A stretch of DNA of 28,800 nucleotides from a virus: the IMG/VR virus record IMGVR_UViG_3300042106_000084, positions 1 through 28,800 of that record. The stretch is one strand, 5' to 3'. Positions 2 to 18,499 of the stretch are shown here, piece after piece. Under the pieces are notes generated by a model. The model was not told the origin of the DNA and ran no database searches. It saw only the letters and a list, made by a program, of their open reading frames with translations. Position 1 is the first letter of the stretch. Every line of letters starts with the position of its first letter. The position numbers and the translations under genes were made by a program.

Positions 2-1114
2 TTGTTCTCACCCAAGCCTTATTCATTGATGGTTCCAGTCTACAATGATACACTTGGGCTAGTTGGTCGGGTAAATGAAAATTTAGACAATTTTGCAGGA
101 GATACATCTATTGTTCAGGAAATTGAAACATTGGGTGGCATCGTTACTGAAGCTTCTGGCGCAATAGTCGACTTCCAAACTTCTCCTGCTGAAAATGTTA
201 TCAACATGGTCGTGGATGATCAATCAAAAGATGATGTTCACACCAACCGCTTTTACTCTGAGGAAGTTGGATTCGACCCTAAGAATCTTGTGGTAAGCTA
301 TAAGCACCCTGTACTCTTTGGGAATAGGCTGTTTGTGGTTGATGAATCTACCCTACGGTGGAGTGAATCTTTTAAATATGATTCCTTCCGACCTGAATCA
401 GTTTATGAAGTAAGTTCAGAACCGACCAAGATTTTACCTCATCATGATGCTCTATTGCTCATTTACGAGAATAACATTGATGTATTAAATTACTCTGGTA
501 CCAAAGAAACATGGCGTACCTCTGATTCGTTGAACAAGCTTGGCACCACCCTGACAAACAGTATTCTCTCAACCCCAGCTGGTGTGTTCATGGTCACCCG
601 ATATGGCATCTTCATGATTAATAGTCCAGAGACAGCAGGAAAAATGAGCTACTACAAGCAGACTCGAATTGATAGAGCTATTGAGGGTGAAATTGACCTT
701 GAATCTGCAACCCCAAATGACATCGTTGCCTATTGGGATTCAGAATGGGAACGCATTGTTTTGATAGATAATCGCACAGAAAAACATTGGGTGTTCAGTT
801 TGAAAAAGGGATGGATGCCAATTGAGGGAAGTGCGTATAGCAGTTTTTCCCACATTATTCCAATCCATGATATGTTGAATTTGGGGCTGGCGCGGAAAGC
901 ATCGGCACCTATCATTTCTAAACTGCGTTATGATGGTGAGAATCTTGGAGACTATGAATTTGAATCTGGATGGATAACCATGAAGGAACCTTCTGTTTTC
1001 AAAAAATTCAAAAAAGTTTATCTTATAGCGGAGATTCCATCGGCTACCGCAATCGCTGACCCTGGCCTTACTGATCCAGATGATGCACAACCTCCAAGAC
1101 CGAGGGCGAACTAA
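2..1114 (+). CDS. Tail hub / DNA-stabilisation-like protein (5'-truncated)
   Basis: The reading frame is open at the left edge of the window, so the real start lies upstream; the visible 370 residues are the C-terminal part. The protein is rich in short beta strands with recurring aromatic and Trp residues, and a stretch at about residues 145-165 (HHDALLLIYENNIDVLNYSG) recalls the 'device-reading' repeats of P22 gp10-like packaged-DNA stabilisation or tail-hub proteins. That family plugs the portal after packaging and leads to the tail. The C-terminus is acidic and Pro-rich. The stop (TAA) overlaps the ATG of the next gene by one base, so the two are translationally coupled. Its place just before ejection-like genes fits a tail role. 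Assignment is by general resemblance and context only; another beta-propeller tail protein is possible. Confidence 0.5.
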   Translation: MFSPKPYSLMVPVYNDTLGLVGRVNENLDNFAGDTSIVQEIETLGGIVTEASGAIVDFQTSPAENVINMVVDDQSKDDVHTNRFYSEEVGFDPKNLVVSYKHPVLFGNRLFVVDESTLRWSESFKYDSFRPESVYEVSSEPTKILPHHDALLLIYENNIDVLNYSGTKETWRTSDSLNKLGTTLTNSILSTPAGVFMVTRYGIFMINSPETAGKMSYYKQTRIDRAIEGEIDLESATPNDIVAYWDSEWERIVLIDNRTEKHWVFSLKKGWMPIEGSAYSSFSHIIPIHDMLNLGLARKASAPIISKLRYDGENLGDYEFESGWITMKEPSVFKKFKKVYLIAEIPSATAIADPGLTDPDDAQPPRPRAN

Positions 1115-1353
1115 TGGCAACAAGACGCAGATTCTACACCGTAAAACTTTATTACAAGAGTGAAATGGATGCGACTTGGCAAGGGCCATTCTTGTTTCGT
1201 GGTGCCGATACTGACATCCAAGTTGATATGGAAGAATACATGGCAAGAATTGGTATCAAAGCCAAACGGCTTAAAATAAAGATTGAAGCGACTTGTCCAG
1301 GGTTGCTTATCGATCATATAGGAATAGTGTTCCAACCTAAACGAGTGAAATAG
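1114..1353 (+). CDS. Small virion-module protein, unknown function
   Basis: A 79-residue basic protein that starts at an ATG overlapping the previous stop (TAATG). It begins with an Arg-rich segment (MATRRRFY) followed by alternating hydrophobic residues that suggest a compact beta-sandwich (TVKLYYKSE, GPFLFRG, RLKIKIEA, IDHIGIVFQP). Small beta proteins directly after a tail hub/stabilisation gene are common in podovirus tail modules, so a tail accessory role is inferred. No family recognised. A GGAG-type ribosome binding site for the next gene overlaps its stop codon. Confidence 0.75.
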   Translation: MATRRRFYTVKLYYKSEMDATWQGPFLFRGADTDIQVDMEEYMARIGIKAKRLKIKIEATCPGLLIDHIGIVFQPKRVK

Positions 1354-1363
1354 GAGATTAGAG

Positions 1364-2011
1364 ATGAAAAACAGAATTGAAAATTTTCAAGAAGATTGGA
1401 CAGGTGGAGCATACGCCCCAGGTGGACAATACGAACAATCCGCAGACCCTAAAGCTGATGTAATGGCTTTGTTTGGTGGTGATATGAACAAATACAATGC
1501 TTGGTACAACAACCTACGCCCCGAAGATAGACCCAAGAATTGGGATGATGCTCTCATTGGTGCGCGTGGAAGCATGGGTGCTGGTGCCTTTAAAGGCGGT
1601 CAGGTTCGTACTGGTCAGCAGACTGGTGTTCAGCCCCTTCAAAATCCTCAGGCACAGCCAATTGTTCCACAAGGGCCACAGGCTATTGGGATGCAGAAAC
1701 AAGGTTTCGGTGCCAAGATGGGTGGCATGTTGGGTCAGATGATGCAACGTGCTGACTATGCAGGCGCAGGCGTTCGTCAAAAACTTGGTCAGGTATTCGG
1801 TGGTGGACAACAACAGCAACAGGCTCCATACATCCCAAGTGGCCCTGCACCACAACCAGCGGCATATGAAGATGGTCAAATGGCACCAAGCGCATTTCCA
1901 AATCAAGCCCCTGCGCAAGTACCGCCACAAGCCCCTCAAGATAATTCTGCTTTATTAAGACAGCTTGCCAGTTGGATGCAATCTGGCGGTGCCCCTAATA
2001 TTGGAGGTTAA
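1364..2011 (+). CDS. Gln/Pro/Gly-rich virion protein, possible ejection protein
   Basis: A 215-residue protein preceded by AGGAG with good spacing to ATG 1364. The N-terminal 70 residues have ordinary composition (ENFQEDWTGGAYAPGG, then a region with W and N that may fold). The rest is low complexity: a Gly/Met segment (about 120-150) and Gln-, Pro- and Ala-rich tracts including a run of five Gln. Such disordered proteins lie beside ejection or internal virion proteins in podoviruses. The gene is 2 bases upstream of the next one. Function is inferred from context only. Confidence 0.75.
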   Translation: MKNRIENFQEDWTGGAYAPGGQYEQSADPKADVMALFGGDMNKYNAWYNNLRPEDRPKNWDDALIGARGSMGAGAFKGGQVRTGQQTGVQPLQNPQAQPIVPQGPQAIGMQKQGFGAKMGGMLGQMMQRADYAGAGVRQKLGQVFGGGQQQQQAPYIPSGPAPQPAAYEDGQMAPSAFPNQAPAQVPPQAPQDNSALLRQLASWMQSGGAPNIGG

Positions 2012-2013
2012 TC

Positions 2014-2595
2014 ATGGGTTGGAATTTTAAAGATGCAGGCGGTGGGGCAGCACAAGGCGCGTTGGCAGGCGGTTCGATGTTCGGGCCCGCAGGCGCGATT
2101 GGTGGTGGACTACTAGGACTCGCCATGGGAGGCATGCACAGTGGGCCACCTACGGCAGAGGAAATGGGAGTTAACCCCCTCGACATAAACGCTGAAGCTC
2201 AAGCATTGATGCCTAACCAATCTGAAACGAACAATCAGCGGAATGAATTCAATGCGGGTCTTGATGGTGAAATAGAGAAATATCGCTCTCAACTCATAGC
2301 GAGTGGAATGGATCCAACTCAGGCCGCGCAATTGGCTCAGAATAAATTCATGTCTCAGAGGAATCGGTTTGGTATAAGCCAACAGCAGGGTCAGGCAAAT
2401 ATGCACCGTGGGCTAATGGCTCAAATGCTTCCTGCAAAACTTCAAAGAGATGAAGATATTTTGAATATCAACAATAACCAAAAGTTCGCACCAAGCTTCA
2501 ATCAATCTATGGCACCCATGACAGCGGGTTTCGGGTTGCAGGGAATCTTTGACAGAACGAATGGAACTGGTTTCTTTAAGCCAGAAGGAGAGTAA
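2014..2595 (+). CDS. Glycine-rich ejection-like protein
   Basis: A 193-residue protein with a GGAGG ribosome binding site and ATG start. Residues 8-42 form a Gly/Ala-rich hydrophobic segment with small-xxx-small spacing, typical of membrane-inserting glycine-zipper segments in phage tail and ejection proteins. Residues about 60-140 are polar, Gln/Asn-rich and probably helical (SQLIASGMDPTQAAQLAQNK). The C-terminus has MAPMTAGFGLQGIFDR. I infer an internal virion or ejection protein that helps to form a trans-envelope channel; no homologue is named. It sits 2 bases before the next gene, which has a similar membrane segment at its other end. Confidence 0.75.
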   Translation: MGWNFKDAGGGAAQGALAGGSMFGPAGAIGGGLLGLAMGGMHSGPPTAEEMGVNPLDINAEAQALMPNQSETNNQRNEFNAGLDGEIEKYRSQLIASGMDPTQAAQLAQNKFMSQRNRFGISQQQGQANMHRGLMAQMLPAKLQRDEDILNINNNQKFAPSFNQSMAPMTAGFGLQGIFDRTNGTGFFKPEGE

Positions 2596-2597
2596 TC

Positions 2598-3164
2598 GTG
2601 GCTATTAATGTTCCGAATAACGACCAAATGTTAAGCCAGTTGTCAGCGGTTGTTGGTGGTGTACTTGCTAATAAAATGGCTACCGAACAAGCGACTGCCC
2701 AACGTGGTCATGAGTTTCAATTGGCGCAACTCAACAATCAGAATCAAATGGCTATGATTACCAAAGATTATGAGATGCGTAAACAGCTAGGTGATGAACA
2801 GCGGAAAGCTATGCTTGAAGCCCTTCCTCAACAGTTACAAGCTTGGGGATTGAATATGCAAGATATGTTACCGAAAGAGGAAAAGCCTGCAAATTGGATG
2901 GAGCATTATGGTTCCCGTATCGCAGGTGGAGCCGCAATCGGTGGTGGTATTGGCTTGGCAGGTGCGGGTGTTGGGGCTATCCCTGGCGCACTTATTGGTG
3001 GAGCCGCAGGACTTATTGAAGCTGGTGGCGCACACCTCCTGAGTGGCATTGGCAAAGAGGACAAAGAAGCCAAGAAGAAATCTGAATTGGCACTACGTCA
3101 AATGCAGACAATCGCTGCTTTGAATCAGATGATGGGTATGAACCAAATGGCACCAGGCTTATAG
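2598..3164 (+). CDS. Ejection-like protein with glycine-zipper segment
   Basis: A 188-residue protein starting at GTG 2598 behind GGAG with 7 bases spacing. The first 90 residues are Gln-rich and predicted helical, with a likely coiled coil (ATAQRGHEFQLAQLNNQNQM). Residues about 107-150 are a long Gly/Ala stretch with repeated GGxxxG-type spacing that could span a membrane twice. A lysine-rich hinge and a Met/Gln tail follow. The arrangement of helical body and glycine zipper resembles ejection or tape-like proteins delivered with DNA. Function inferred from composition and position directly before the giant protein. Confidence 0.75.
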   Translation: MAINVPNNDQMLSQLSAVVGGVLANKMATEQATAQRGHEFQLAQLNNQNQMAMITKDYEMRKQLGDEQRKAMLEALPQQLQAWGLNMQDMLPKEEKPANWMEHYGSRIAGGAAIGGGIGLAGAGVGAIPGALIGGAAGLIEAGGAHLLSGIGKEDKEAKKKSELALRQMQTIAALNQMMGMNQMAPGL

Positions 3165-3174: not shown

Positions 3175-6100
3175 TTGAGCGAAAATCCTTATGTCGAGAT
3201 AGCAGATGTAATAGAGCAAATGAAACCACAGCTTTCACCTCATCAGGTGGGGGCTGTTCGTGATTATGAGAAGGCTCTATATGGTGAAGATGAATTTTTT
3301 CTGAGGGAAACAGGGCGACTACTTGGGCAGATACCTACGGGTTTTGCTGAAGGGATGTCAACCGTTAATCTCCAATTCATTGAACCGCGTACTGAAGCTG
3401 AGAAAATTGCTCGGTCATTAGGTTCCTTGCTTGGTTTCGTGGGATATATCCCCAATCCATCTGCCCTTGCTCTAAAGGTTGCTGGAAAGACCAGTAAAAA
3501 GGGTGCGTTAAAAATACTCGGGAAACAATGGAACAAGCCTAATTCAGCAGGTCGATGGGCTGAAATGCAGGCTATGTCTCTGGATGATTTATACAAGACT
3601 GCCATTGAAGGTGTTCCCACTAATCTCTCTAAAGTAAAATCAGTGCCGATGTATCTCACTGATATGATCACTAAATCCTCGGTTGGTAAAAAAGCAGGGA
3701 AAGCATCCCTAGACTTGCTTAACAAGTCGAAGTATATCAACTCAAACAAATTCCTGGCACCGCGTATTGGTGATTTTGGGGAAGGAATGATGCACTTGGG
3801 TCTGGCTTCTGCCATTTCCGCAGGTGGTATCAATCCTTTCCAATGGAAGGAACGTGTTGATTCTGTACTCCCTGCTTTCGCTCATGGTGCTGCCTTTGGT
3901 GGTGCCTTTCGTGGTATTGGGCAACTTGGTAGCGTTCTAAACTGGACTACCGCTAGTGGTTCTCCAAAGACTGCCGCGAAGTTGTTGCAAGCAGTTGCAG
4001 GCTCTATGGTTCAAGGTATTCCTTCAACCATGCGAAACGACTCTACTGCTGAACAGATTTATGAATACTTACTTGGTAGTTGGTTTGGATTTCATGAAGT
4101 TCCCTATGTTAAAAGAGTAGCAGGGAAAAAGGAACATGAGATTCAGATTGAAGGTCAGAAGTCACAGGGCGTTCATACCAGTTGGCATTATCGCAATAAT
4201 CCTGAAGCCTTTAAGCGGAATTTTGGTTGGGATAAGATGCCAAAAGAAGCACAGGACATTGTTGACCTATGGCTAAAAGACCAGTATAACGCAAATAGTC
4301 CTGAGCTTTATGACATCATGACTCAGGCAAATGAAGAAATCGCAGTTAGACGCGAAGCTGGTGAAGATGTTCCCTTTATTATTCCCAATCGTGTTGGTGT
4401 CGTAAAAGCTCCTGATGCACATGGTCTTGAATTTCAGGTTCCAATTTATCATCGTGATGCTCTCAGCGAAGGTAAGCCAATTAAAAATGGTGCCATGTTT
4501 GACCGTCAAGGTGGTCGAATCATTATTGACCCTGAGTATTTTGAGCGTAATGACCCTATCTGGAGAAAAGAGGGATTCGGTCCTGACATCGATTCAACAT
4601 TTCTTCCCACAAAAGCTGAACGCCAACGGTTCATGATACTTCATGAGTTCTATCATAAATTTTACAAGTCTGAAGATTTAGCTAATGTGGTCGCTGCCTT
4701 TGAAGTAAAGCGGGAACTTGGTAAAGAAGCTGAAATTCCTGCTAATTGGATTCTTCCTCAAAGACTCTCTCCGCAGGAAAAGATTGAGTTTCAGCGATAC
4801 GTTGATAAGCTTACGATGGAAACCTATACTAAAGGTGAAGTCATTCCCGATGGAACCTACGTCAATATGCACCTCAGGACTGAAATGGGTCAGATGTATG
4901 GGCATCGTGGGTATGTGGTTGAAAAAGCAGAGGAAGCTAATGTTTTCCGCATGCTGATTGAACGACCCGCGGAAAATGGAAAGCCTGGGGAATATGTCCT
5001 CGATGATCATACTACCTTAGTCGGCCAAGACCTTATCACTGGAATATGGCGTGATAGACACATTTCTGAGTTAGACCGCGAAGCATCCCTTCCTACTGGA
5101 CATGATAATGAAGGGAATTTCAATTGGGAGGGTGGTAAGCCCACCAAAACGCCAGAAACACCGCCTAAAGCTCCTGTAAAGCCAAAAGCGACCATTGAAC
5201 CGCCTAAGCCTAAAAAGGCTCCTGAGAAGCCTAAACCGCCTAAGGCAAAGAAGGTCAAAAAGCTCACCAAGAAACAAGCCAATCAGGTTGCAAATGTCGA
5301 GAAGGAAATCAAACTTCTTGAACGGATTGAGCTAGAGCAAACCGAGAAGATGAAGAATGGCGAGAAGCCAGATGATGCAGTTGGCATGGATTTCCTTCGG
5401 AGACAAGAGCAGTTAGGTGACTTCCTTGCTCGTAATGATGAAGTATTTTCCAGGATTGTAGAGAAACAGAACAATGACCTAGTTGAATATGGTAAATACC
5501 TACAAGAAAAGTATGGCAAGGAATATGAAAATTCTGACCTATCTCCCAAAGACCTAGCCCGACTCAAAGAGTTTAAAACTTTCCAAAAACGATTGGAAAT
5601 GTTGATGGCAGTAGGGCAATCCCGATTGATTAATAAGGGAAAACCTACCCCTGAGACTAAGGAATTACCTGAGGCCAAGATTAACAAAGAGGGTGAGCTT
5701 GAAATCACTATTGAAGGTGGTGAGAAGGAAGCTCAAGAGTTAATCAAAAAGGGTAAGCTCGAAGTCAAAGAGATTCAGAACGACGAGTATGTTCATCATT
5801 CAGGTGGTGCCAAAGGTGCTGATACTGGTTGGGATATGGCAGGGCGTAAATATGGCGTGAAGTCAAAACATTATCGGGAACCTGGGGCAAAGAGCGTTGA
5901 CAGTCCTACCCTTAAAGGCGAGGGTGTTAAACCAGTTGAGATGTCAAAAGCTGAGTTTAAAGAAGGTACTGAGAAAGCTACTAAGGCAGCGCAACGTCTT
6001 GGTCGCCCAATGTCTGCCAAGTTCGCACATTATCAGATTCGGAATTGGAACCAAGTCAAACATGCTGATGCGGTATTCGCAGTCGGTAGAATCCTCGATG

Positions 6101-9100
6101 TGGGTGAAGCAGGCGCAAAGGGTTTCCCCAATAAAGCCAAAAAGCAAACGGTGGATGGTGGAACTGGATATGCGGTTGAAATGGCTATTGGTGAGGGTAA
6201 GCCAGTATTCGTCTTTGACCAAGCTAGGAAGAAGTGGCATACTTGGGATGGAAAAGAATTTGTTCAAATCGATACTCCTACCCTGACACCCAATTTTGCA
6301 GGGGTTGGAACTCGGGAACTTACCAAAGGTGGCATGAAAGCCATTGAAGCAGTATTTGAGAAAACCTTTGGCAAGAAAACTGAACCTGAACCCGAAGTAG
6401 AAGTAGATCCCTGGGATGCGCTTGATGAGAATGGCAAGATTGAACCTAGTGCCGATGAACTAAATGTCCTCGATGGATGGGAGAATAAAGCACCAGTTGG
6501 TGAAGATGGTCGCCCACTCACATCTGATGTTCCTGAGCGTTCTGCAGAATACTCCGAACGAATTGAATCATCCTACACACCCCACTTGAAAGAAGTCGGT
6601 GTGAAGAATGGTATCAAAGATGACATGAACGTGTCTAAGTGGAAATCTGAACTCCGTGAAAAACTCGGGAACTACGATGATGCGAATTTAGTCATTGAAG
6701 AATTTCAGCACCAGTATTCTCAGATTGACATGGGTGGCAAAGCCAACAAAGATGGTTGGACTAAAGGCCAGTTAGAGTTCATGAAGTTGGTCGAGGAAGC
6801 ACACCCAGGACTATCAAAACAAGCTTTGATGGAATACCATAATCAGGTTGAGATTGATACTATTTCCTTGAAAGGTAATGGCGCTGAGTTAGGTCGAGCA
6901 TACATCACAAACGCTAAGATTCATAGGCTGTTTGACCATAAACGGTTTGTGGCACTTGAACCTAAGTTGATTGATAAGATTTATGAGGGTGCTGGACTCT
7001 ACAATGAAGCGGGTCTATACACTATTCGTGAACTGCTTGCGAAAAATGAGCCTGCTGAAGCATACTTTGAGCGCATGGGTGTTGATTTTGGACACATCTA
7101 TGACATGAAGCATCCAGTCGGAAAATATGCCCGACTCTTAATCAAATATGAACCACACATGATCACAGAGCTTAGAGCCATTGAAGCTTCTGAAAAAGAT
7201 GGTCGTGCATCTGATAGATACCTGAACCAAAGAGATATTTTTGAAGCTCAGATTCATCGGGAAATCTTTGAAGCCGCGCAAGGCAAACAGTACACCCAAT
7301 GGGCTACTGAAGGAACAATTCCTTACGCCATGTATCAGGCTAATTACAATGAGTGGAGAGAGCAAAGGGCTGAACAGAACAAGCCTAACTCAAAGGTTGC
7401 CTATGAACGATTCCTCAGAGATAAAGGCATCAAATCACGCGCTGATAAAATGATGAAGTATTTTGGTCAGGCCAATACCAATGCCTATTACTCTCCGAAT
7501 AAGCGGAAGATGAATTATGTCGTAATCAATGACGGAACATGGATAAAGAAATTAGCCAAGAATTCTGTGTATCAAAAGTGGTTGAAGTCTGATACTAAAA
7601 GTCGTCAAGATGGTGCTATCTACATTTCCAAAGCACAACTTGAAAGGCAGAATGAAAGGTGGAATCTTCCTGACGATACCGTGAATATGAAAACGGTTAT
7701 CAATCATCGCTCTGGTGATGATGTATTTATTGGAAAGGGTGAGACTTTTTACCATGAGGGTCTAAACGAGTTCATGGAAGCGAATGGGTTGGATTTTGTA
7801 ATCTTTGACTCAGGTGCTAAAATCCGTGCCGACAAAACAGGGGTGAACTGGCCTATCATGGAAAACATGACCTTTGCTGATATGGCAAAAGGTCGTAAGG
7901 GTGCTGATGGGAAACGTAACTTTAAATATCCTGAGATTGCAGAAAACATGCGTTCAGATATTGGTGAAGATGCCGTTGGGTTTATCAAGATGGACAAGAC
8001 CAAAGGCAAGGGTCGCGTAACAGTCACACCTCAGGTTTTGGATTCGTTCATGAATCATGATGTTGCCAATGAATATATCGAAGCCTATGTGAAGGATGAA
8101 GTCAAAGCAGTCGAGCAGATTCAGAAGTCGATTACTCGCCCAAAAGCTTTTGTCAATGCGCTTATCCATTATGGACTTGGTGCTAAAATCAAACGTGATG
8201 CGAAGGGCAAGCGTTTCGTTGAGGGGAACTTCTCTGAATCGAATGAAGCCTATGTTCGGAAATTAATGGATGGAGCAAATCCATTCTCCGCACCTTTGAT
8301 TGAGCAGACAAACAATACCTTTAGACAAGTTTTAGGCCACATCGCCAAGCCAAGAACTGCATCGGGGGAATGGGTGACACTCGTTCCTGAAAGTGGTTTT
8401 GCATGGAAAAAAGGCGGTAAGGCTGAAGAACATGAGCTGAAAGAGCGTACCTTCAGGGACTACTCTGGTGAAAGAGTTGTAGTCCCTGGGGAGGCTCGCG
8501 CTCCTTATAGCTTTTCAAAGAAACTAGAGAAGCCTGAAAATATCACGCTGTTTGATCATGAGACAGGGAAATATGTAAAATACGCTGACCATTTTCCAGC
8601 CACACCAGTTGGTGGGAATGGCAAGATGAGATATGGTGATGCGTGGGAAGCCACCAGAAGCCAATTCTTCACTCGTAAAAATGCCGAGGGCAAAGATGAA
8701 CAGGTTCGGAAATATGACCTAATCATGAATTTCCAGACCTCTCCAAAATCTAAGCCTGAAGATATGCTTGTAATGGCGGTTGATGTTTTCCTTCCCAAGA
8801 CTCGCGGAAATGCACTTGAAGCCAATACTCTCGATGCGTCTGTTGCTGCTGAACGTGATTGGGATGGTGATGCAGGGGCAGGATTCATTCACATGCCTGA
8901 AGGTATGATGCGTGAATATACGAAGGACATACTTGGCCCCGATGGTGAGTTTCGTGTTGGTATCACCGATGTTGGAAAAGCGACGAATCCGCAGGTCGAC
9001 CTTTTGGATCCTCAGTGGTATCGTGAAATGAATGACAAGATTCGCACCGTCAATAAGAAGATTGGTGAAGTTGTAAATAGGCGGTCTGGATTCGATGCCA

Positions 9101-12100
9101 TTGTCAAAGGCAACATGAGTATCAATTGGCTTGGAAATAGATTAACTGCAATCAAAGCTGACAGTGAAGCATATTCAGGCTACATGTCTGAATTTGCTGG
9201 TGAAGTCCAGGTGACGGTTGATGGTCCGAAAGCTGACCTTCTTTCCCGACCTGACCTACTCAGAGGAAATTACTCAATGCTTGCTCGCGGTAGAGCCTTT
9301 CTTGAGTTCTCGCGAAAAGACCCGATTCACAAGATTCTCGCAAAGGTAGCCAGTTACTTTAAAGAGCAGGCTGGCCGAATGGTGAACAGTAAGAATTTCG
9401 ATGGTGAAGCAAAGAACGCATCACTAAAAGCGGTTCACCAAGCTGTGCATGAACATCGAGTGCTTGAAGCAGCTGAGAACAACGAGCTATTCACATTGGG
9501 CGGGGTTCCCATCAAGACCGATCAGGTGTATGGCGTTGTCTGGTGGAAGCAGGCAGTTCCTTCCCTGAATAAAGTGACTCAGGCTATTCATAATATCACA
9601 TCTGAATTAACTCTCTCTGAAGTAACTCGCGAGGGAACATTCCCTGAGAAGAAATACAACAAAAACAAACGTGTCGCAATTCAAGCTCTCAAGAAACGTG
9701 TGAAGGATTCTGAGGATGGTCGAGCCTATGGCGTGAATGAGCAGGATATGGCCTATTGGGAAATGTATGAAGCCAGCCTTAGTCATGGTGCTATGCAACT
9801 CCGTTGGGGGCCTGCAAGTGAAGCCAAGAAATATGACATGCCTACTGCCATTCGTGACATGCTGATTGCTGAAGATAACCCAAGTAAGAAGTTCCTGCTT
9901 GAAAAGCATGACCACAATAACCGAACTGAATATTCTGATACCATTGTATTACCATTCTTGAATGTGAAAGGCAACCATTCAACAAGTCCGAAACAACGAT
10001 TGCTGAAGAAGCTAATCGCTGCCTATCCTGACCCATTCAAACTGCATGACCCGACTCCTATCAATTTTCATGTTGGTGGAACTGGTGGTGGTATGCACAC
10101 GACTCGAAGGGCTGACCAAATCAGAACTTCCATGTTGGCATCCAGAAATAATGAAGCTCTCTATCGTATGATTGCCGATAAACACCCTGAGATATTTGAG
10201 GGAATCGACTACAAATCCAGTAAAGGTTGGACTATCCCTAAACGCATCCTTGAGTATTGGGGTGAGAAGAATAAGGCCAAAGCGAAACAAATTGCTGAGA
10301 TGTGGGCTTTGCGTTCAATGCGTGATAGCTTGCCCTTCCAACGGCCTAGAGATTTTGCATCAGTCGAAGAATTAAAGATGAATGAGAATAAGGTTCAGAC
10401 CAAATTTCGCTTTTTCATCGAGACTAATGGGTTAGAGCCTATACTCTTTCCCAAAGGTATTCCTGAGAATCTAGGGGAGTACCTGGATAAGTACCGCATC
10501 GAAAGTCAAGATGGTGGGAAGCAGTTTGATTATACCTCTCTCGATGCGCGTATCCAGTCCTTGTGGGATAAAGGCACCAGAGACATCCGAACATTTTTCA
10601 TGCCTGACCCAATGGTTTCCAAAACTGGCAGTTTGCATGGCTCGTTTACTGAAGCCGTTAGTATCAACCGAAGTTTGTGGGACCAATTCTCGAAGGACAA
10701 AGCTCACCAAAGTTGGATTAGACACTACGATGATGTGGTATCTGACCAAGATGGGATGGGGCATAGATATACGGAAGCATCGAGGAAAAGGGCTGACCTA
10801 CTCCTAAGAGGGGTTGAACCTAATGAGCTTTTCTTCCCTTATGGTGGCCGTGAAGAAGCACTTGGGGTAATTAAGGATATGAGTAACGGTACAATCCCAA
10901 TGACTCCTGGGCAACGTGCTGACTTCCAGAGACTATTTGCTGAATATCCTGAAATGGCTTCTCAGTTTCGCAGGGTTCTACTTGGCCTTATTAATAAACC
11001 TCACCTCGATAACCACAAAGAGATTGACTTTGTTATCAAAAAATTGAGCGCATTGGGTTCTGGCGATCCTAGACTTGGTGTGATTCAAAGACAACTCATG
11101 CCAAATAGAGTTCAACGTGACTTCCTGAAGTTTGATGTCATGTGGCCTGAGTCTGAAGTGGTTGGAACTGGTATGCACGCCTTGAAGCCAGTTAGTGGAT
11201 TCGGTAAGGTTTTTCAACATCAGCTGGAATCACATGCTGAGATTCAGAAGGAAGAACAAAAAGGGCAAATCTTACTAAACTCTATTTTCTATCTGGAAAA
11301 GCTACCCGAGTGGGTTTCCAAAGAGTATGGTCTTGAGAATGGATCTATGTTCACCAAAGAGGAATCTACCTACGTCGAACAATGGAAAGAAATGTTTAAA
11401 GCTGATGTTGGTGCTGTAAAGGACTTGTTTGACATCGCGGCTCACATCTACCCAGTTGAGTATGGCGGTAAAGAGCATTTCAAAGGAATGTCCTCTGAGC
11501 ATAAAGCTGAAATCATGGATAGATACAGAAATGCTAAAGCTCAGTTGGAATCTCTTGACCATGATGCAGGTCGAGCAAAACGACATTATGTGAAATATAT
11601 CATGAGACAGCAGAACAAGCTTGCTGACTTCATCCATAACACTTATTGGGAACATTCTTCAGGCAAGAAATACTCTATCCATTGGAATAATCAGGAAGTG
11701 AAAAGGTATCACTTACCCAAGCAGATTAAAGAATTGAACAAAGAAATACTCCGACTGCAAAAGGAATCTTCAAAGCTGACTGGTTCCGATGCCAAAGAGA
11801 TTCAGAATATTATTGAAGCGCGGACCGAGACGATGCACATGTTGGAAAACCTAGCCAAAAAGCTAGACAACTTGAATCGTATGAAGCTTGTTGCAAAGGG
11901 TGATAAGTTCATTACTCCTGACCGAATCGCTGGCTACCTCCCTCACATTTGGGATTCACCTGAGTTGATGGTAAAAGCCTATGAGGAATCATATGTCAGA
12001 ACCATTAATGCAACTAAAGACCCCAAGCTGAAGAAAGCACTTACAATTGACATGCAGAAGAAGCTTGAAGATTTAGGCCGAACGATGGTTGAACCACCTG

Positions 12101-13692
12101 GAAAAGAGTTCTTTGATGCGAAGGCTGATCAATTCGATTGGTTCTCCAAAACAAGAAATCCTGCCGAGCGTGAGCGTAACATGCAGTTAGGCGGGTGGTC
12201 TACTGAGCTTCCTATGGTCTGGATGAAGTATTGGAAAGATACTGTGAAACAGGCTGTTGGGCTTAAATATAGTGTTGAAAGTCGCAGAATGATTGACGAT
12301 TTCAGTATGCGAATGGAGAAGAAATTCGGTAAGGAATCTGAAGGTCAAGTAAAGCGAATTGCTGAATTTATGAATGTATATTTGCGTGACTCAATGGGCT
12401 ACATACCTGAGTTCAATAAGCGACCCAAGCTACTGAAATATATGCTTGCCAAAGCATCAGGTAAAAAGCCTGACGATAATCCCGATGCTTATGAAGAATT
12501 CTTTTCCGATTCTACTGTAATTGATTTTTGGAATAAACGCTCTAAGTACAAGTTGCCTGCATGGAAAATGCAACAACTAGCTAACCTTGAAGCCAAGTAC
12601 GAATATCTGACCTTGCTGACACATCCTAAATATCCACTTGGAAATATTCTTGGCGGTACAACCAACATGCTAGTCTATGGTGGAATCAAACGATTCAAGC
12701 AAGCCAATCAACTGTTGGGTCAAAAAGACGGTGAATATAAGGCGATGATGAAATCTCAGGGAGTGTTGCCCGAGTTAATGGCCTATGAGTTCGATGTTGC
12801 TGCTGGCCCTTACAAAGTGGAAATAGGCGGTGCCTATGAAGCCGTGAAAGAAGTGGCATTATCCAACAAAACTAGAGCGCAGAAAAGGGAAGCTTTACTT
12901 GAAATAAATCGCAAGTATAATATTGGCAGGAAAGCTATGGATATTGCAGGGAAATTCGGTACTCCTGCTGAAACATGGCTAAGAGAACGTGCATTTACTG
13001 TTGGGTATATCATGGCAGAAGAAATGGGCTTGTCAGGTGATGCACAGATTAAGTTTTCCAGGGATGTTGTAACTGGTACACAGTATCTTTACCACAATGG
13101 GGTAAGACCTGAATTTGCTAGAACTGGATTCGGTAAAATTGTTACTCGATTTATGATGTACTTCTTTTCCACCATGAGCTTTCAAAAGCAGATTCAACTT
13201 GATGCACAGAAATTGAACCTAACTCCTGAGTCTGAAGAACACAAACGCATGCAAAGATGGACTTCGGTTGCATCGGTCATGATGGCCTTAGCATCGATCT
13301 ACCCATATTCAATATTTGATTCAGCTTTGCCACCTCACCTGGATGCCATGAAGGATGCGAGTGAAATGATGTTCGGTGATGATGATGATAGGAAGCGTGC
13401 TTTCTTCGGTACCTATGGTTTGAACGTAATTACCGCACCAATGCCCTCAAGATTAATTCTAAGGCCATTAGTCACAATCATGAATCAAGACTATCAGCGG
13501 TACTTAAACAGCGAGATATACAGTTGGTTCCCCTTTGGCAGATTTGCTAAGAGTTCCATGCGAATGTTACGCAATCCTATCTATGGATTAGAGACTTTCG
13601 CAGGTGTTCCACAGATTTCCGCAAGTCGGGATGTGAAGCATATTCAGAAGGGAAAAGAAAAAGGGACTGACAGTTATCAATCCCCAGGTTAG
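3175..13692 (+). CDS. Giant polyvalent virion protein: zincin, SLOG and RNA-polymerase-like modules
   Basis: A single uninterrupted 3505-residue frame. The TTG start is chosen because AGGGGT lies just upstream with proper spacing. Visible parts: N-terminal region (1-330) with hydrophobic Gly-rich patches; metalloprotease motif H490-E-F-Y-H494 preceded by a hydrophobic helix; Pro/Lys-rich linker (about 655-700); SLOG/LOG-like Rossmann domain (about 872-1030) with HHSGGAKGADTGW, NWNQVKHADAVFAVG and GGTGYAVEMAIGEGKPVFVF; region about 1450-2080 resembling phage two-barrel RNA polymerases, with DGAIYIS (1479-), K1521 in FIGKGE, K1549 in FDSGAK and D1895-W-D1897-G-D1899 followed by FIHMP, as in the catalytic loop of multisubunit polymerases; a coiled coil (about 2843-2915); a hydrophobic C-terminal area (about 3317-3385), perhaps an LPD-type domain of large polyvalent proteins. 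Giant proteins of this kind are packaged and injected. Zincin and SLOG calls rest on clear motifs; the polymerase call is a strong suspicion, not proof. The remainder is unassigned. Confidence 0.85.
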   Translation: MSENPYVEIADVIEQMKPQLSPHQVGAVRDYEKALYGEDEFFLRETGRLLGQIPTGFAEGMSTVNLQFIEPRTEAEKIARSLGSLLGFVGYIPNPSALALKVAGKTSKKGALKILGKQWNKPNSAGRWAEMQAMSLDDLYKTAIEGVPTNLSKVKSVPMYLTDMITKSSVGKKAGKASLDLLNKSKYINSNKFLAPRIGDFGEGMMHLGLASAISAGGINPFQWKERVDSVLPAFAHGAAFGGAFRGIGQLGSVLNWTTASGSPKTAAKLLQAVAGSMVQGIPSTMRNDSTAEQIYEYLLGSWFGFHEVPYVKRVAGKKEHEIQIEGQKSQGVHTSWHYRNNPEAFKRNFGWDKMPKEAQDIVDLWLKDQYNANSPELYDIMTQANEEIAVRREAGEDVPFIIPNRVGVVKAPDAHGLEFQVPIYHRDALSEGKPIKNGAMFDRQGGRIIIDPEYFERNDPIWRKEGFGPDIDSTFLPTKAERQRFMILHEFYHKFYKSEDLANVVAAFEVKRELGKEAEIPANWILPQRLSPQEKIEFQRYVDKLTMETYTKGEVIPDGTYVNMHLRTEMGQMYGHRGYVVEKAEEANVFRMLIERPAENGKPGEYVLDDHTTLVGQDLITGIWRDRHISELDREASLPTGHDNEGNFNWEGGKPTKTPETPPKAPVKPKATIEPPKPKKAPEKPKPPKAKKVKKLTKKQANQVANVEKEIKLLERIELEQTEKMKNGEKPDDAVGMDFLRRQEQLGDFLARNDEVFSRIVEKQNNDLVEYGKYLQEKYGKEYENSDLSPKDLARLKEFKTFQKRLEMLMAVGQSRLINKGKPTPETKELPEAKINKEGELEITIEGGEKEAQELIKKGKLEVKEIQNDEYVHHSGGAKGADTGWDMAGRKYGVKSKHYREPGAKSVDSPTLKGEGVKPVEMSKAEFKEGTEKATKAAQRLGRPMSAKFAHYQIRNWNQVKHADAVFAVGRILDVGEAGAKGFPNKAKKQTVDGGTGYAVEMAIGEGKPVFVFDQARKKWHTWDGKEFVQIDTPTLTPNFAGVGTRELTKGGMKAIEAVFEKTFGKKTEPEPEVEVDPWDALDENGKIEPSADELNVLDGWENKAPVGEDGRPLTSDVPERSAEYSERIESSYTPHLKEVGVKNGIKDDMNVSKWKSELREKLGNYDDANLVIEEFQHQYSQIDMGGKANKDGWTKGQLEFMKLVEEAHPGLSKQALMEYHNQVEIDTISLKGNGAELGRAYITNAKIHRLFDHKRFVALEPKLIDKIYEGAGLYNEAGLYTIRELLAKNEPAEAYFERMGVDFGHIYDMKHPVGKYARLLIKYEPHMITELRAIEASEKDGRASDRYLNQRDIFEAQIHREIFEAAQGKQYTQWATEGTIPYAMYQANYNEWREQRAEQNKPNSKVAYERFLRDKGIKSRADKMMKYFGQANTNAYYSPNKRKMNYVVINDGTWIKKLAKNSVYQKWLKSDTKSRQDGAIYISKAQLERQNERWNLPDDTVNMKTVINHRSGDDVFIGKGETFYHEGLNEFMEANGLDFVIFDSGAKIRADKTGVNWPIMENMTFADMAKGRKGADGKRNFKYPEIAENMRSDIGEDAVGFIKMDKTKGKGRVTVTPQVLDSFMNHDVANEYIEAYVKDEVKAVEQIQKSITRPKAFVNALIHYGLGAKIKRDAKGKRFVEGNFSESNEAYVRKLMDGANPFSAPLIEQTNNTFRQVLGHIAKPRTASGEWVTLVPESGFAWKKGGKAEEHELKERTFRDYSGERVVVPGEARAPYSFSKKLEKPENITLFDHETGKYVKYADHFPATPVGGNGKMRYGDAWEATRSQFFTRKNAEGKDEQVRKYDLIMNFQTSPKSKPEDMLVMAVDVFLPKTRGNALEANTLDASVAAERDWDGDAGAGFIHMPEGMMREYTKDILGPDGEFRVGITDVGKATNPQVDLLDPQWYREMNDKIRTVNKKIGEVVNRRSGFDAIVKGNMSINWLGNRLTAIKADSEAYSGYMSEFAGEVQVTVDGPKADLLSRPDLLRGNYSMLARGRAFLEFSRKDPIHKILAKVASYFKEQAGRMVNSKNFDGEAKNASLKAVHQAVHEHRVLEAAENNELFTLGGVPIKTDQVYGVVWWKQAVPSLNKVTQAIHNITSELTLSEVTREGTFPEKKYNKNKRVAIQALKKRVKDSEDGRAYGVNEQDMAYWEMYEASLSHGAMQLRWGPASEAKKYDMPTAIRDMLIAEDNPSKKFLLEKHDHNNRTEYSDTIVLPFLNVKGNHSTSPKQRLLKKLIAAYPDPFKLHDPTPINFHVGGTGGGMHTTRRADQIRTSMLASRNNEALYRMIADKHPEIFEGIDYKSSKGWTIPKRILEYWGEKNKAKAKQIAEMWALRSMRDSLPFQRPRDFASVEELKMNENKVQTKFRFFIETNGLEPILFPKGIPENLGEYLDKYRIESQDGGKQFDYTSLDARIQSLWDKGTRDIRTFFMPDPMVSKTGSLHGSFTEAVSINRSLWDQFSKDKAHQSWIRHYDDVVSDQDGMGHRYTEASRKRADLLLRGVEPNELFFPYGGREEALGVIKDMSNGTIPMTPGQRADFQRLFAEYPEMASQFRRVLLGLINKPHLDNHKEIDFVIKKLSALGSGDPRLGVIQRQLMPNRVQRDFLKFDVMWPESEVVGTGMHALKPVSGFGKVFQHQLESHAEIQKEEQKGQILLNSIFYLEKLPEWVSKEYGLENGSMFTKEESTYVEQWKEMFKADVGAVKDLFDIAAHIYPVEYGGKEHFKGMSSEHKAEIMDRYRNAKAQLESLDHDAGRAKRHYVKYIMRQQNKLADFIHNTYWEHSSGKKYSIHWNNQEVKRYHLPKQIKELNKEILRLQKESSKLTGSDAKEIQNIIEARTETMHMLENLAKKLDNLNRMKLVAKGDKFITPDRIAGYLPHIWDSPELMVKAYEESYVRTINATKDPKLKKALTIDMQKKLEDLGRTMVEPPGKEFFDAKADQFDWFSKTRNPAERERNMQLGGWSTELPMVWMKYWKDTVKQAVGLKYSVESRRMIDDFSMRMEKKFGKESEGQVKRIAEFMNVYLRDSMGYIPEFNKRPKLLKYMLAKASGKKPDDNPDAYEEFFSDSTVIDFWNKRSKYKLPAWKMQQLANLEAKYEYLTLLTHPKYPLGNILGGTTNMLVYGGIKRFKQANQLLGQKDGEYKAMMKSQGVLPELMAYEFDVAAGPYKVEIGGAYEAVKEVALSNKTRAQKREALLEINRKYNIGRKAMDIAGKFGTPAETWLRERAFTVGYIMAEEMGLSGDAQIKFSRDVVTGTQYLYHNGVRPEFARTGFGKIVTRFMMYFFSTMSFQKQIQLDAQKLNLTPESEEHKRMQRWTSVASVMMALASIYPYSIFDSALPPHLDAMKDASEMMFGDDDDRKRAFFGTYGLNVITAPMPSRLILRPLVTIMNQDYQRYLNSEIYSWFPFGRFAKSSMRMLRNPIYGLETFAGVPQISASRDVKHIQKGKEKGTDSYQSPG

Positions 13693-13704: not shown

Positions 13705-13740
13705 AAAAAAGAAGCCCCTCTGAATCGAGGGGTTTCTTAT
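13705..13740. terminator. Bidirectional intrinsic terminator
   Basis: Arms GAAGCCCCTC and GAGGGGTTTC flank a 6-base loop, with an A-run on the left and a T-rich right side, so it can stop transcripts from both sides. It lies between the stop of the giant gene (13692) and the end of the converging minus-strand genes (13780). Confidence 0.85.
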
Positions 13741-13779: not shown

Positions 13780-14076
13780 TCACCTTGCTAATGTCATTTC
13801 CCACATATGAGAAATATGGTGAGGAACATCATCAGGTGCATCTAACGAAACCTCGAAATAGTCAGGTCGCCTACCTTCCCACATCAAGCCTCTAGTGGTT
13901 CTACCCACAGCAAAGCTTTCCTCATGTTCAGGCGCACCAGTTTTATTCCACCACACGAATTTCACGTTCCCTGGCAGTTTGTTTTCTGGTTCGTTATTTT
14001 TTCCCCAAATCCTCTCATAGTTTTCACCATAAGATTTTTGGTCAACCTTTTGCTGGGTGTTTGCGATTCTGTTCAT
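13780..14076 (-). CDS. Hypothetical phage protein, last gene of the leftward operon
   Basis: A 98-residue protein at the distal end of the minus-strand gene series. I place the start at the ATG at 14076 because GAAGGG lies 9 bases upstream; an ATG at 14085 is also in frame but overlaps that site. It overlaps the upstream gene by 35 bases. The middle (GNVKFVWWNKTGAPEHEESF) and the C-terminus (PHHISHMWEMTLAR) are Trp- and His-rich. No family recognised. Confidence 0.6.
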   Translation of the reverse strand: MNRIANTQQKVDQKSYGENYERIWGKNNEPENKLPGNVKFVWWNKTGAPEHEESFAVGRTTRGLMWEGRRPDYFEVSLDAPDDVPHHISHMWEMTLAR

Positions 14077-14233
14077 CCTTAGCATCCCTTCTCTTTTGTA
14101 GCTCTTTTACCATTCGTGATGCGGCATGGCAACGGATTCCCCATTCAATAGGCTTGTCGTTGCCTCTTTCATAAACACCATAACCTGAGCCATGTGGCCC
14201 TGATTTTATAGATTCATAATGTTTAGTTTTCAT
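14042..14233 (-). CDS. Small basic hypothetical protein
   Basis: A 63-residue protein starting at ATG 14233, directly after the stop of the previous gene and behind GGAGG with 7 bases spacing. A longer frame to 14329 exists but would overlap that gene by about 95 bases without a better ribosome site. It has Gly-rich HGSGYGVYERG, then a helical basic half (ASRMVKELQKRRDAKDEQNR). Function unknown; the basic helix could bind nucleic acid. Confidence 0.65.
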   Translation of the reverse strand: MKTKHYESIKSGPHGSGYGVYERGNDKPIEWGIRCHAASRMVKELQKRRDAKDEQNRKHPAKG

Positions 14234-14234
14234 C

Positions 14235-14471
14235 TTATTCCTCCGTTCCATCAGTGAATGTACTGTTTTCTTTACAAGCTGAACATCTTCCATAGTGTTC
14301 AATGATAGGTTCACCATCATCGGTTTCATCTACTACCTCACTATGAATTTCACCATAGGCGTTAGCCGTACAGCATAGGGATAACAATTCATCATCATCC
14401 TCTATTATCGGTTCAGGCGGTGGGTCGGGTGGGTCAAAATTAGAACCAAGCTGATAAATTGCTTCACTCAT
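14235..14471 (-). CDS. Acidic small protein with Cys pairs (zinc-ribbon-like)
   Basis: A 78-residue strongly acidic protein (PEPIIEDDDELL). ATG 14471 is preceded by GGAG at 7 bases and overlaps the previous stop as ATGA. Cysteines occur as LCCTAN and CSACKE, spaced like a small zinc ribbon. No catalytic feature seen. Acidic, Cys-containing small proteins in phage early operons are often host-takeover factors, but nothing here proves that. Confidence 0.65.
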   Translation of the reverse strand: MSEAIYQLGSNFDPPDPPPEPIIEDDDELLSLCCTANAYGEIHSEVVDETDDGEPIIEHYGRCSACKENSTFTDGTEE

Positions 14472-14740
14472 TTTAAATCTCCATTCTCATCCAGATAAGG
14501 GTTTCCCGCATTACCGCTTCTATCATGATAGACATCTGGATGCCTTTCGGTAATCGGGTCGAGAGCCATAAGTTGACGTTGAACTTCGGCTTCTTCACCT
14601 TTCAATAATCTCAGATTAGTTAGGTGCTTGTGGATCTTCCTGTGAAGTCGAAAGGCCGCTTTGGGTGAATTGGAATTTATCCTTTCAATCCACCCACCTT
14701 CACCAGTATTAGTGTTGGTTGACATAATGAAATAAATCAT
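14468..14740 (-). CDS. Small basic hypothetical protein
   Basis: A 90-residue protein. ATG 14740 overlaps the upstream stop (ATGA), which favours this start over the in-frame ATG at 14725. The central part is a basic helix (KAAFRLHRKIHKHLTNLRLLKGEEAEVQRQL), and the C-terminus is Asn/Gly/Asp-rich. No domain recognised. It is translationally coupled to both neighbours. Confidence 0.6.
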   Translation of the reverse strand: MIYFIMSTNTNTGEGGWIERINSNSPKAAFRLHRKIHKHLTNLRLLKGEEAEVQRQLMALDPITERHPDVYHDRSGNAGNPYLDENGDLK

Positions 14741-15129
14741 CTAGTCGCTGCCGTATCTGATTCACAGTTTTTACAATAAAAAGTGTCATAGGTATCCTCA
14801 ACCTCAAAATCTTGAATTTCTTCAGACCATGAAATTGTGGCATCCATGACAATGTTGGTTGAATCACATTGGATACATTTATAAGGTAGCATCTTGCTTT
14901 TATTCTTGTGCATGTTGTAAATGCCCCTAAGAGTACGAACAAGGGATGGGAGCATTTCATTTGGAATAAAAAGGACACAGGACTTCGACACCCCACGCGA
15001 ATTAATGGGGGAGAGAATTGCGCTCTCCCCCTCATAATTCGAGGACACGACATCGATTCCAAGTAGTTTACCTACCCGATTCCGACCTATGTACTTGCCT
15101 ATTTTATTCAGGCGAATCCACTTCCTCAC
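14737..15129 (-). CDS. Zinc-ribbon protein, unknown function
   Basis: A 130-residue protein starting at GTG 15129 behind AAGG. It begins with a basic segment (RKWIRLNKIGKYIGRNRVGK), then a beta-rich middle, and ends with two Cys pairs, CIQC and CKNC, about 35 residues apart, the usual pattern of a zinc ribbon. The gene overlaps the upstream one by 26 bases. A nucleic-acid or host-protein binding role is plausible but not shown. Confidence 0.6.
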   Translation of the reverse strand: MRKWIRLNKIGKYIGRNRVGKLLGIDVVSSNYEGESAILSPINSRGVSKSCVLFIPNEMLPSLVRTLRGIYNMHKNKSKMLPYKCIQCDSTNIVMDATISWSEEIQDFEVEDTYDTFYCKNCESDTAATR

Positions 15130-15364
15130 CAGCCTTCAGTTTCTCAGAGTTGATGAGGGCGATCTTGTAAGCTGACGTTTTAGTTAGCTCACCGACTTCC
15201 TCACCTTCCATGAAACATTGTGCCAGTAACCAACTTGCTTCCCCTTGAGTAAAGCCAGTTGGGTCGGAGTCGACTGCTATTCGCATAGCTTCATCGATTC
15301 CTTGTGCGTGTACTTCCTTGTGAACAGGAATAGTGACATTAAATCCGATTCTAAACTTCAGCAA
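15104..15364 (-). CDS. Small hypothetical protein after ParB-like gene
   Basis: About 86 residues from a TTG at 15364 overlapping the end of the ParB-like gene by 14 bases. The frame is open further upstream to 15472, but that extension is a Lys/Pro-rich shadow of the acidic ParB tail. No strong ribosome site is seen, so the start is uncertain. The plausible core is FRIGFNVTIPVHKEVHAQG followed by two helices. Function unknown. Confidence 0.5.
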   Translation of the reverse strand: MLKFRIGFNVTIPVHKEVHAQGIDEAMRIAVDSDPTGFTQGEASWLLAQCFMEGEEVGELTKTSAYKIALINSEKLKAGEEVDSPE

Positions 15365-17171
15365 CTTCGCTTTCGATTGGGTCGGCTTTTTCGCTTTCTG
15401 TTTCTTCGGTGCTTTCGGTGTAATCGGTTTCGATTTCTTCTGCAAAGGTTGTTTCTCCTTCCTCTGAATCATCTTCAGTTTCTACATCGGTTGTTTCAAA
15501 TTTACTCTGATGAACTAGAGCAAAGCCAGGTTCAGTTATGGTACTATAATTATACCATGCTGATAAGAAATCATCACCATGTTGCACATACTGAGATTTC
15601 CATTCATGGTCTTTGGTGAGTAGATCCACCATAGGCATCTTTGGAATTTCAGCGATTGCAGCAACATAGTCACCCTTCTTAGCAGAAGATTCCATTTCTG
15701 CAAATGGTTCCAGGTCACCCTTTGTGAACAATGCTGTAATAGTTTCACGGAGGTGCTTATTAGCAGTCCACTCTTTCAGCAGTTCAAGGTTTATATCAAC
15801 ATCAATGCCATTTTCGACCATGATGTGTTGAAGTTCGACCAGTTCAGAAAAGCGACCTGCTTCAACAATCTTGTTGCGAATAACAGCAATCCGAAGATTG
15901 TGCATCGTTCCCATCATGTCAAAGGATAGCCAGTTTTCCTTTGTGTAAACGTGTTTTCTGTGATTCATGCAAACATCACCAATTGCCTGAGCATTGGTTG
16001 AGAATAGCATGTGAGCAACGGGGCCAGTCAGACCAATATCAGAAGCAATTAAATGCTCCCAAAGGTATTCCTTCATATATCCAACTACGAAAGTACGCCA
16101 TTTAGATTGACTTGAATTGGAAAGCCCTTTTTCTTCCTCAGGCTCGGTCCCAGGTTCGGTACTGGTGTTAGTTTCCTTTTCGGCTTTGGTGGCTTTAGCG
16201 GCTTGACGAAGCAGAATTTCACCTTCACGGCTAATGTCAAACGCGATTGCGTTCTTGATAGCACCCTTTACTCCACGAGCTTTGGTGTGAAATTCTACTG
16301 GGGTAAAGCATTTTACGTCATGATGCCATTTGCTCTGGTCGACTTGTGGAACACCAAGCGATTCAGTCAGTTCAGCGATGAAAGCCGTGTACTTTTCACG
16401 GTAGCAAGCTTCATCATAACATGGGTTGGTAACAGATGGTTCGGTATATTCAGCAAACATGCCTAGTTGATCATCGGTGCGAAATTCGCAACCAACACAT
16501 GACTTGCCTTCACATTCTGTTAGTGTAATGTCGAATGGCGCTCTATCCAAAGTCAACTTCTGACTTCTGAGAGTATATTCAGCATCGCTCCAATGGTAAG
16601 ATTCGATGAAGTCGTATTCTTCAAGCAAGGTTTCCTGTGTTTTCTGTGAATAGGATGCAATGCTTACAGCATCTTCAAGGAAGTCTTTGTAATCATCAGA
16701 TTCGTTTAGGGCTTTCAGTAAGACAGGATGTAGGTTGGCAAGCATACCGAAGTTTCTTACCCAGGCAACAGTTTTGCCAAAGACAACAGCGATTTGTTTC
16801 TGATTCATGCCGTCATTCGTCATTGTCACCACAAGAGAAACCATATCGAGCAGGTTCATGTCTTGACGGTGGATGTTTTCATGTGATTGTACTTTGGTAA
16901 GTTCTTCATTCGTTGCTGTGATAATACTGACAGCTACATCAAAGTCAGCCTTCCCATGAATCTTCTTCAAGGCAGCGAATCGCCTGTTACCTGAAATCAG
17001 TTCATATATCTGACGTTCTGGATCCTCACGAACAGTCAAAGGGTTTAACAAGCCAACAGCTTTTATGGATTTCACCAATTCACTGTCAACCTTTACTTTT
17101 CCAACACGGACATTTCCTAATGGTTCTATCAGATTGATATTAACCATTCCAAGTATTGCTTGAGCTTCCAA
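15351..17171 (-). CDS. ParB-like DNA-binding protein, large
   Basis: A 606-residue protein. I choose TTG 17171 because AAAGGAG lies 8 bases upstream and a promoter lies just before it; a GTG at 17237 would sit inside that promoter. Residues 1-100 are a ParB/sulfiredoxin-type domain with the SGNRRFAAL box (GNRR at 61-64), the nucleotide-binding arginine motif of ParB CTPases. Residues 122-146 (MNQKQIAVVFGKTVAWVRN) are a helix-turn-helix. A cysteine cluster (C220, C225, C228, C251, C256) suggests a zinc site as in many plasmid/phage ParB-like proteins. The remaining 350 residues are helical and unassigned, with a very acidic C-terminus. No ParA is present, so DNA binding, condensation or transcription control is more likely than classical partition. 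Confidence 0.8.
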   Translation of the reverse strand: MEAQAILGMVNINLIEPLGNVRVGKVKVDSELVKSIKAVGLLNPLTVREDPERQIYELISGNRRFAALKKIHGKADFDVAVSIITATNEELTKVQSHENIHRQDMNLLDMVSLVVTMTNDGMNQKQIAVVFGKTVAWVRNFGMLANLHPVLLKALNESDDYKDFLEDAVSIASYSQKTQETLLEEYDFIESYHWSDAEYTLRSQKLTLDRAPFDITLTECEGKSCVGCEFRTDDQLGMFAEYTEPSVTNPCYDEACYREKYTAFIAELTESLGVPQVDQSKWHHDVKCFTPVEFHTKARGVKGAIKNAIAFDISREGEILLRQAAKATKAEKETNTSTEPGTEPEEEKGLSNSSQSKWRTFVVGYMKEYLWEHLIASDIGLTGPVAHMLFSTNAQAIGDVCMNHRKHVYTKENWLSFDMMGTMHNLRIAVIRNKIVEAGRFSELVELQHIMVENGIDVDINLELLKEWTANKHLRETITALFTKGDLEPFAEMESSAKKGDYVAAIAEIPKMPMVDLLTKDHEWKSQYVQHGDDFLSAWYNYSTITEPGFALVHQSKFETTDVETEDDSEEGETTFAEEIETDYTESTEETESEKADPIESEVAEV

Positions 17172-17202
17172 AATAGAGGCTCCTTTCTTCGGTTTTTTAA
17201 TA

Positions 17203-17232
17203 ATTATAGAAGGTGTGGGGTAGGCTTTGCAA
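17203..17232 (-). promoter_or_regulatory. Sigma70-like promoter of the ParB-like gene
   Basis: On the minus strand TTGCAA (17232-17227) is followed by 18 bases and a perfect TATAAT (17208-17203). The predicted start lies about 10 bases before the AAAGGAG of the ParB-like gene. The -35 box falls in the loop of an inverted repeat. Confidence 0.6.
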
Positions 17233-17242
17233 CCCACCCCAC
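17215..17242. promoter_or_regulatory. Imperfect palindrome over the -35 box, possible operator
   Basis: GTGGGGTAGG and CCCACCCCAC form a 9-pair arm with one mismatch around an 8-base centre holding TTGCAA. It lies between the stop of the 138-aa gene and the ParB-like start. As an RNA hairpin it lacks a following T-run, so an operator (perhaps for ParB itself) seems at least as likely as a terminator. Confidence 0.45.
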
Positions 17243-17254
17243 GGTGCGAAACGC

Positions 17255-18269: not shown

Positions 18270-18283
18270 AAGGGATTCCGATC

Positions 18284-18499
18284 TTAGTTGTGTATTGACT
18301 TATAATCATCAATAGTTAATCCCTGTTTCTTTCTCAGGGCATCTTTTTTACGAACTCTATCAATCCTACGTTTCCGAATAAGAGCTTGTTGAGATTCTTC
18401 GCGAATCCATCTCTGCAATCGCTTAATTTCAAAGTAGCTTAATTTTCGCATAGCAGATTTAATGCGCTTCTCGTTTGTCAGGTCACTACGGCCTATCAT
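18284..18499 (-). CDS. Small very basic protein
   Basis: A 71-residue protein, about one third Arg/Lys (IKRLQRWIREESQQALIRKRRIDRVRKKD), likely all helical. ATG 18499 overlaps the previous stop (ATGA). The charge suggests nucleic-acid binding, but no motif identifies it. Confidence 0.6.
   Translation of the reverse strand: MIGRSDLTNEKRIKSAMRKLSYFEIKRLQRWIREESQQALIRKRRIDRVRKKDALRKKQGLTIDDYKSIHN

Follow-up and report, generated by a model that had tools for sequence, protein, structure and literature searches.

A proposed two-barrel RNA polymerase module within a giant virion-type phage protein

Phages which bring their own RNA polymerase (RNAP) were long known mainly from the N4-like and jumbo phages. 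The crAss-like and P23-45 enzymes widened the virion polymerases to a single-chain, two-barrel type. In N4-like phages the virion RNAPs always come as fusions with metallopeptidase domains (PMC5512222), and P23-45 gp96 is a two-barrel virion polymerase which is fused to a tape measure and possesses metallopeptidase and membrane parts (PMC10770324). Here we analyzed a 28,800-base IMG/VR virus record (IMGVR_UViG_3300042106_000084), the whole of which is called the window. It encodes a giant late/virion-type protein of 3505 amino acids (3175..13692, + strand) in a single open frame with a TTG start. A two-barrel RNAP module is proposed at about residues 1440-2130 of this protein (7492..9564, +), on the basis of a block conserved in a related contig, profile matches and fold. 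The protein is likely to be an injected virion RNAP of the single-chain, two-barrel type which transcribes early genes. Apart from L143, a contig of the same phage, the only relative found among 2.9 million viral contigs is L002, in which the counterpart of the giant protein is full-length with 3256 amino acids.

A sequence-only reading of the window had placed DGAIYIS, K1506, K1521, K1549, DWDGD and VDGPKADLL in a 3505-residue protein, and the translation agrees, with VDGPKADLL at residues 2015-2023. FIHMP, which it listed after DWDGD, is present at residues 1904-1908 and is not conserved, being SMVIP in L002, while the FFxxxGE-type segment that it also described does not occur anywhere in the protein. 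The proposed start of barrel B is DGAIYIS (1479-1485; 7609..7629, +), which is DGAIFVS in L002; about 36 residues lead from it to KG and 28 more to K1549. K1521 of FIGKGE (1518-1523; codon at 7735..7737, +) is the proposed first catalytic lysine and K1549, the last residue of FDSGAK (1544-1549), the proposed second lysine of this barrel. These two, in KG and SxxK, are the candidates for the conserved barrel-B lysines and both are kept in L002, as is K1506 within VNMKTVINHR. In the crAss-like RNAPs the corresponding start is TD[AG]Q..[IT][ST] (TDAQ/TDGQ...SA.K), and the pattern DG/DA..[IV][ST] is shared with the window. P23-45 gp96 shows DGALGI...LKG, sharing a DGAxxI...KG spacing of about 40, and P23-45 gp64 shows DGIVGI...WKG. 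KG is also present in YonO of SPbeta, a single-chain enzyme with the same order of DG...KG...S-x-x-K and then DxDGD, which differs in its length of 839 residues, its DNDGD motif and its free-standing state without giant fusion.

Barrel A would begin with VVVPGEA (8476..8496, +), recognized by direct sequence comparison; phi14:2 gp66 has YIRPGQ and P23-45 gp96 has IVPGEI at this strand. An insertion of about 60 residues separates this first strand from the catalytic half of the barrel, which consists of FQTSP, 37 residues and then DWDGD (1895-1899; 8857..8871, +), the proposed metal-binding catalytic aspartates. From the motif Pro to DxDGD, 37 residues are found here and 35 in gp96; the RxP-to-DxDxD distance is 32-36 residues in E. 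coli beta', Thermus phage and crAss-like enzymes and 40-44 in the YonO group. The window shares LPx3G[ND]x[IL] before DxDxD with the crAss-like RNAPs, which carry DFDID in place of DWDGD. The identity with L002 over the polymerase region is 34%, and AERDWDGDAG, DGAI[YF][IV]S, F[IV]GKG, the Lys of [ST]xAK and GFIKxxKTxGKG are all kept. Positions 8712-8876, around DWDGD, are among the few blocks of the giant gene which can be aligned with L002 as DNA. The combined order DG...KG...SxxK...DxDGD, a pattern written partly with the window in view, was reached by none of 4000 shuffles and was absent from 0.66 million decoy residues.

Profile comparison with the crAss-like RNAPs, which the sequence-only reading had proposed as a check, returned matches in both predicted barrels. 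A hidden Markov model (HMM) built from seven crAss-like barrel-B segments, with the window excluded, ranked the window protein first among more than 7500 frames (7.9 bits vs 3.7), and the match site was the FDSGAK segment at residues 1530-1549. In hhalign against 13 crAss-like RNAPs, the top local match was the second barrel-B Lys segment with K1549 (residues 1528-1550, EGLNEFMEANGLDFVIFDSGAKI; 7756..7824, +). Its score of 32.8 was not reached by any of 300 column shuffles (maximum 26.5), and the four further regions of the giant protein compared in this way scored at most 26.7. The second-best match (residues 1857-1881, QIVGILPEAMGDTI; 8743..8817, +) precedes DWDGD and lies one residue off the DxDxD register, the motif itself being outside the aligned stretch. 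The barrel-B segment LNEFMEANGLDFVIFDSGAK of the window and INEFMEENGIDVVQFESTTK of the crAss001 RNAP are identical at 12 of 22 positions, a level equalled by one of 300 shuffles. No significant hhalign match was obtained with the single sequences of gp96, gp64, gp66 and YonO; a minor gp66 match fell at the first strand of barrel A.

The fold was approached with a template-free model of a 187-residue fragment (residues 1756-1942), which had a predicted template modelling score (pTM) of 0.55 and a predicted local distance difference test (pLDDT) of about 70-88 over model residues 20-100. Among 350,542 chains searched by Foldseek with this model, the top chain was an RNA polymerase large subunit; against viral models there was no clear match, with two weak RNAP fragments in the top ten. 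In the VIA comparison every match listed was what we take to be a double-psi barrel (decarboxylases, RNAP subunits and a loosenin), and most were RNA polymerase large subunits. The best was an aspartate decarboxylase (Z 3.6, root-mean-square deviation (rmsd) 2.5 A, 44 aligned), followed by large subunits of RNA polymerases I and II and of archaeal and African swine fever virus (ASFV) enzymes with Z of 2.1-3.3, of which Pol I gave Z 3.3 and rmsd 4.7 A over 86 aligned residues. Residues 361-474 of Pol II were aligned to model residues 15-131, and Asp481, which we take to be the catalytic residue of Pol II, would fall two residues from D1895 in this alignment, a nearly correct register. The model is thus favourable to a resemblance between the fragment leading into DWDGD and the catalytic double-psi barrel, barrel A. 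As such low Z values can mean merely a common arrangement, this fold is taken as support and not as proof. The sequence-only reading had predicted two double-psi barrels; barrel A is suggested by the fragment model, and the second barrel, barrel B, is proposed from profile matches and may have the same fold.

Several observations weigh against a polymerase. Pfam, PHROGs, NCBIfam and PDB sequences gave no polymerase match, and neither did comparison of the giant protein with 50,697 phages by sequence. The hhalign probabilities were low (2-4%), as expected from short matches and from profiles of two rows against thirteen. The whole-region model of 941 residues had a mean pLDDT of 33 and was unusable, retrieving no polymerase in structure search, and the fragment model, with which the proposed structural check could be made for one barrel, has pLDDT below 50 at and after DWDGD. 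Foldseek with the fragment found nothing significant (best E 0.85), and the fold Z values are at most 3.6. The DNA pattern of DWDGDAG matches at least 119 bacterial genome stretches by chance, with no relatives among the matches listed. The DxDxD block forms the end of the catalytic barrel; when 82 motif-matched sequences were scored with an HMM of this block derived from 15 known polymerases, the window came 14th and L002 18th. As the motif arises by chance and the block profile is not discriminating, DWDGD by itself proves nothing; as a polymerase signature it is kept in L002 and is not distinctive alone. The motif frequency, the block profile and the low Z values would suit an ordinary protein, of the helical ejection or tape-measure-like kind, in which the motifs are due to chance and there is no polymerase at all. 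We regard this as unlikely, in view of two separate profile matches at both predicted sites that none of 300 shuffles gave, a structural list made up of barrels only in near-correct register, and motif conservation in L002.

The RxP arginine is also absent, the window having NFQTSP and L002 MYQSSP; this residue is common to all 15 polymerases compared here and is not used in the literature to define the family. The module is moreover known from two sequences only. The loss of this arginine, the extreme divergence, the insertion inside barrel A and the lack of a third member proving constraint on catalysis would all suit a decayed or repurposed two-barrel domain, a polymerase homologue without activity which serves an ejection protein in structure, nucleic-acid binding or channel formation. 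Set against them, all three aspartates and the lysine candidates are kept while their surroundings diverged to the level given above, and we hold such decay to be improbable. The active two-barrel polymerase is preferred because of the profile matches at K1549 and before DWDGD, the barrel-like fragment model and an architecture like that of N4 and P23-45. The interpretation given by the sequence-only reading is supported in part.

In its architecture the window protein resembles the N4 virion RNAP, sharing a length of about 3500 amino acids, the idea of an injected protein, a predicted metallopeptidase part such as is fused in N4-like proteins, and a giant late gene that runs towards the early ones. 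The N4 enzyme differs in its T7-like fold, for which the window gave no match. A polymerase of N4 type in the same giant protein would suit this size class and the late gene facing the early genes; we consider it extremely improbable, since no T7/N4-type polymerase family was matched in Pfam or PHROG at E up to 1. The earlier description of an N4-like idea with an unrelated fold fits this result. P23-45 gp96 is a nearer published precedent than N4; there, as in the window, two-barrel motifs lie inside a giant virion protein for which metallopeptidase and membrane parts are predicted. The RNAP of gp96 is N-terminal, whereas here it lies mid-protein, from about residue 1440; the window protein is not a siphovirus tape measure, and its SxxK Lys segment is as in the crAss-like enzymes. 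The crAss-like RNAPs are large virion proteins too, but the proposed window polymerase lacks the RxP arginine and is fused to a PLxRFG-type giant protein. The genome is not crAss-like otherwise in the parts examined, and the RNAP region, the C-terminus and the helicase had no tblastn match to any crAss-like phage that would place it in Crassvirales. The very large 'structural protein' entries of the Flavobacterium phage Fpv1, whose record is not classed in Crassvirales, and of the Azobacteroides phage ProJPt-Bp1 contain crAss-like RNAP barrels.

The crAss-like/QDE-1/YonO/P23-45 clade is proposed as the nearest to the module, which is probably closest in sequence to the crAss-like enzymes and has an arrangement that is probably most like that of P23-45 gp96. 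The spacing of DG, KG and SxxK in barrel B presumably resembles that of the eukaryotic RNA-dependent polymerases, which would be in line with a two-barrel polymerase copying RNA or priming DNA replication instead of transcribing early genes. The closest profile matches are, however, DNA-dependent virion RNAPs of crAss-like phages, and the replication arm carries its own primase-helicase, so that priming by the giant protein is not needed; this role is very unlikely. For the virion RNAP, a new family is somewhat favored, which would combine a barrel-B sequence of crAss-like type with an arrangement like that of P23-45 and N4, in a phage that is related neither to the crAss-like nor to the Thermus phages. 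Its proposed arrangement, as read from sequence, has the polymerase mid-way in a giant ejection protein containing metallopeptidase and PLxRFG regions.

Outside the polymerase module, a hydrophobic N-terminal segment (residues 51-100; 3325..3474, +) is 78% identical in L002 and may have a membrane role. HEFYH (residues 490-494; 4642..4656, +), a predicted zincin-type metallopeptidase site, is HEAYH in L002, and its region showed only a weak Pfam match (Peptidase_M78, E 0.09). A DprA/SLOG-like domain is situated at residues 865-1024 (5767..6246, +; PHROG 768, E 1e-5 and 2e-7). As it is inserted here and absent from L002, where the alignment has a gap, it suggests effector cargo that can be swapped within a polyvalent protein. 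The C-terminal PLxRFG/tail-700 region (residues 3252-3405; 12928..13389, +), of a kind typical of giant phage proteins, matches NCBIfam NF032893 with E 1.5e-8, which falls under the curated cut-off of that family.

The window is organized in two convergent arms, and the uncultured phage is probably podovirus-like. Upstream of the giant gene, structural genes (2..3164, +) encode a beta-propeller-like tail/virion protein and three small Gly/Gln-rich proteins, a gene order like that of podovirus nozzle and ejection proteins. A terminator-like stem-loop (13709..13738, +) lies between the late arm and the convergent replication/early-type arm (13780..28504, - strand). The latter includes ParB-like (15351-17237), RusA-like (20350-20730), primase-helicase (21649-23466), SSB-like (23470-24066), Sak4-like (24393-25094) and ArdC-like (25344-26321) genes, all on the - strand. 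The SSB-like protein ends in an acidic tail, DEPLPF, likewise found in L002, and has no significant family match; the ArdC-like antirestriction protein matched a metallopeptidase weakly. Two 35-nt repeats (27371-27405 and 27928-27962), 80% identical, lie where this arm is poor in genes, each at a terminator-like element on the - strand, and are a possible phage-specific transcription signal. L143 is 99.8% identical across 10.8 kb and adds 1.5 kb on the right, where the early arm ends at a divergent region and the genes past it have the opposite orientation. This region (L143 1300-1510), a possible origin or site of early promoters, contains a TAGGAACTTAGTA-type repeat twice. Searches for further relatives by C-terminal, barrel and helicase patterns gave none beyond L002 and L143.

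Because the giant gene sits among structural genes and its product contains domains of giant phage proteins, the protein would be present in the virion and injected. In the proposed mechanism it would be made late and packaged in the virion, and its membrane-like N-terminal part and giant C-terminal region would serve to eject it, together with the DNA, into the cell. K1521 and K1549 would come from barrel B, and the aspartates that would coordinate the catalytic magnesium for RNA synthesis (D1895, D1897 and D1899) from barrel A. The ejected polymerase may use promoters of the opposite-strand early/replication arm and transcribe it before, or without, the host RNA polymerase. Host-type promoters in the early arm showed no enrichment (25 found vs 29 expected), and a scan for them in the divergent region of L143 gave no match. 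This scarcity is weakly compatible with a phage polymerase and is not evidence for one.

If true, one more phage lineage would have taken the two-barrel enzyme into its injected giant proteins, and the repeated evolution of polymerase passage through the phage ejection channel would become testable. The two-barrel enzymes would gain a very divergent member without the RxP arginine, and the phage could start the transcription of its genes with no need of the host's polymerase.

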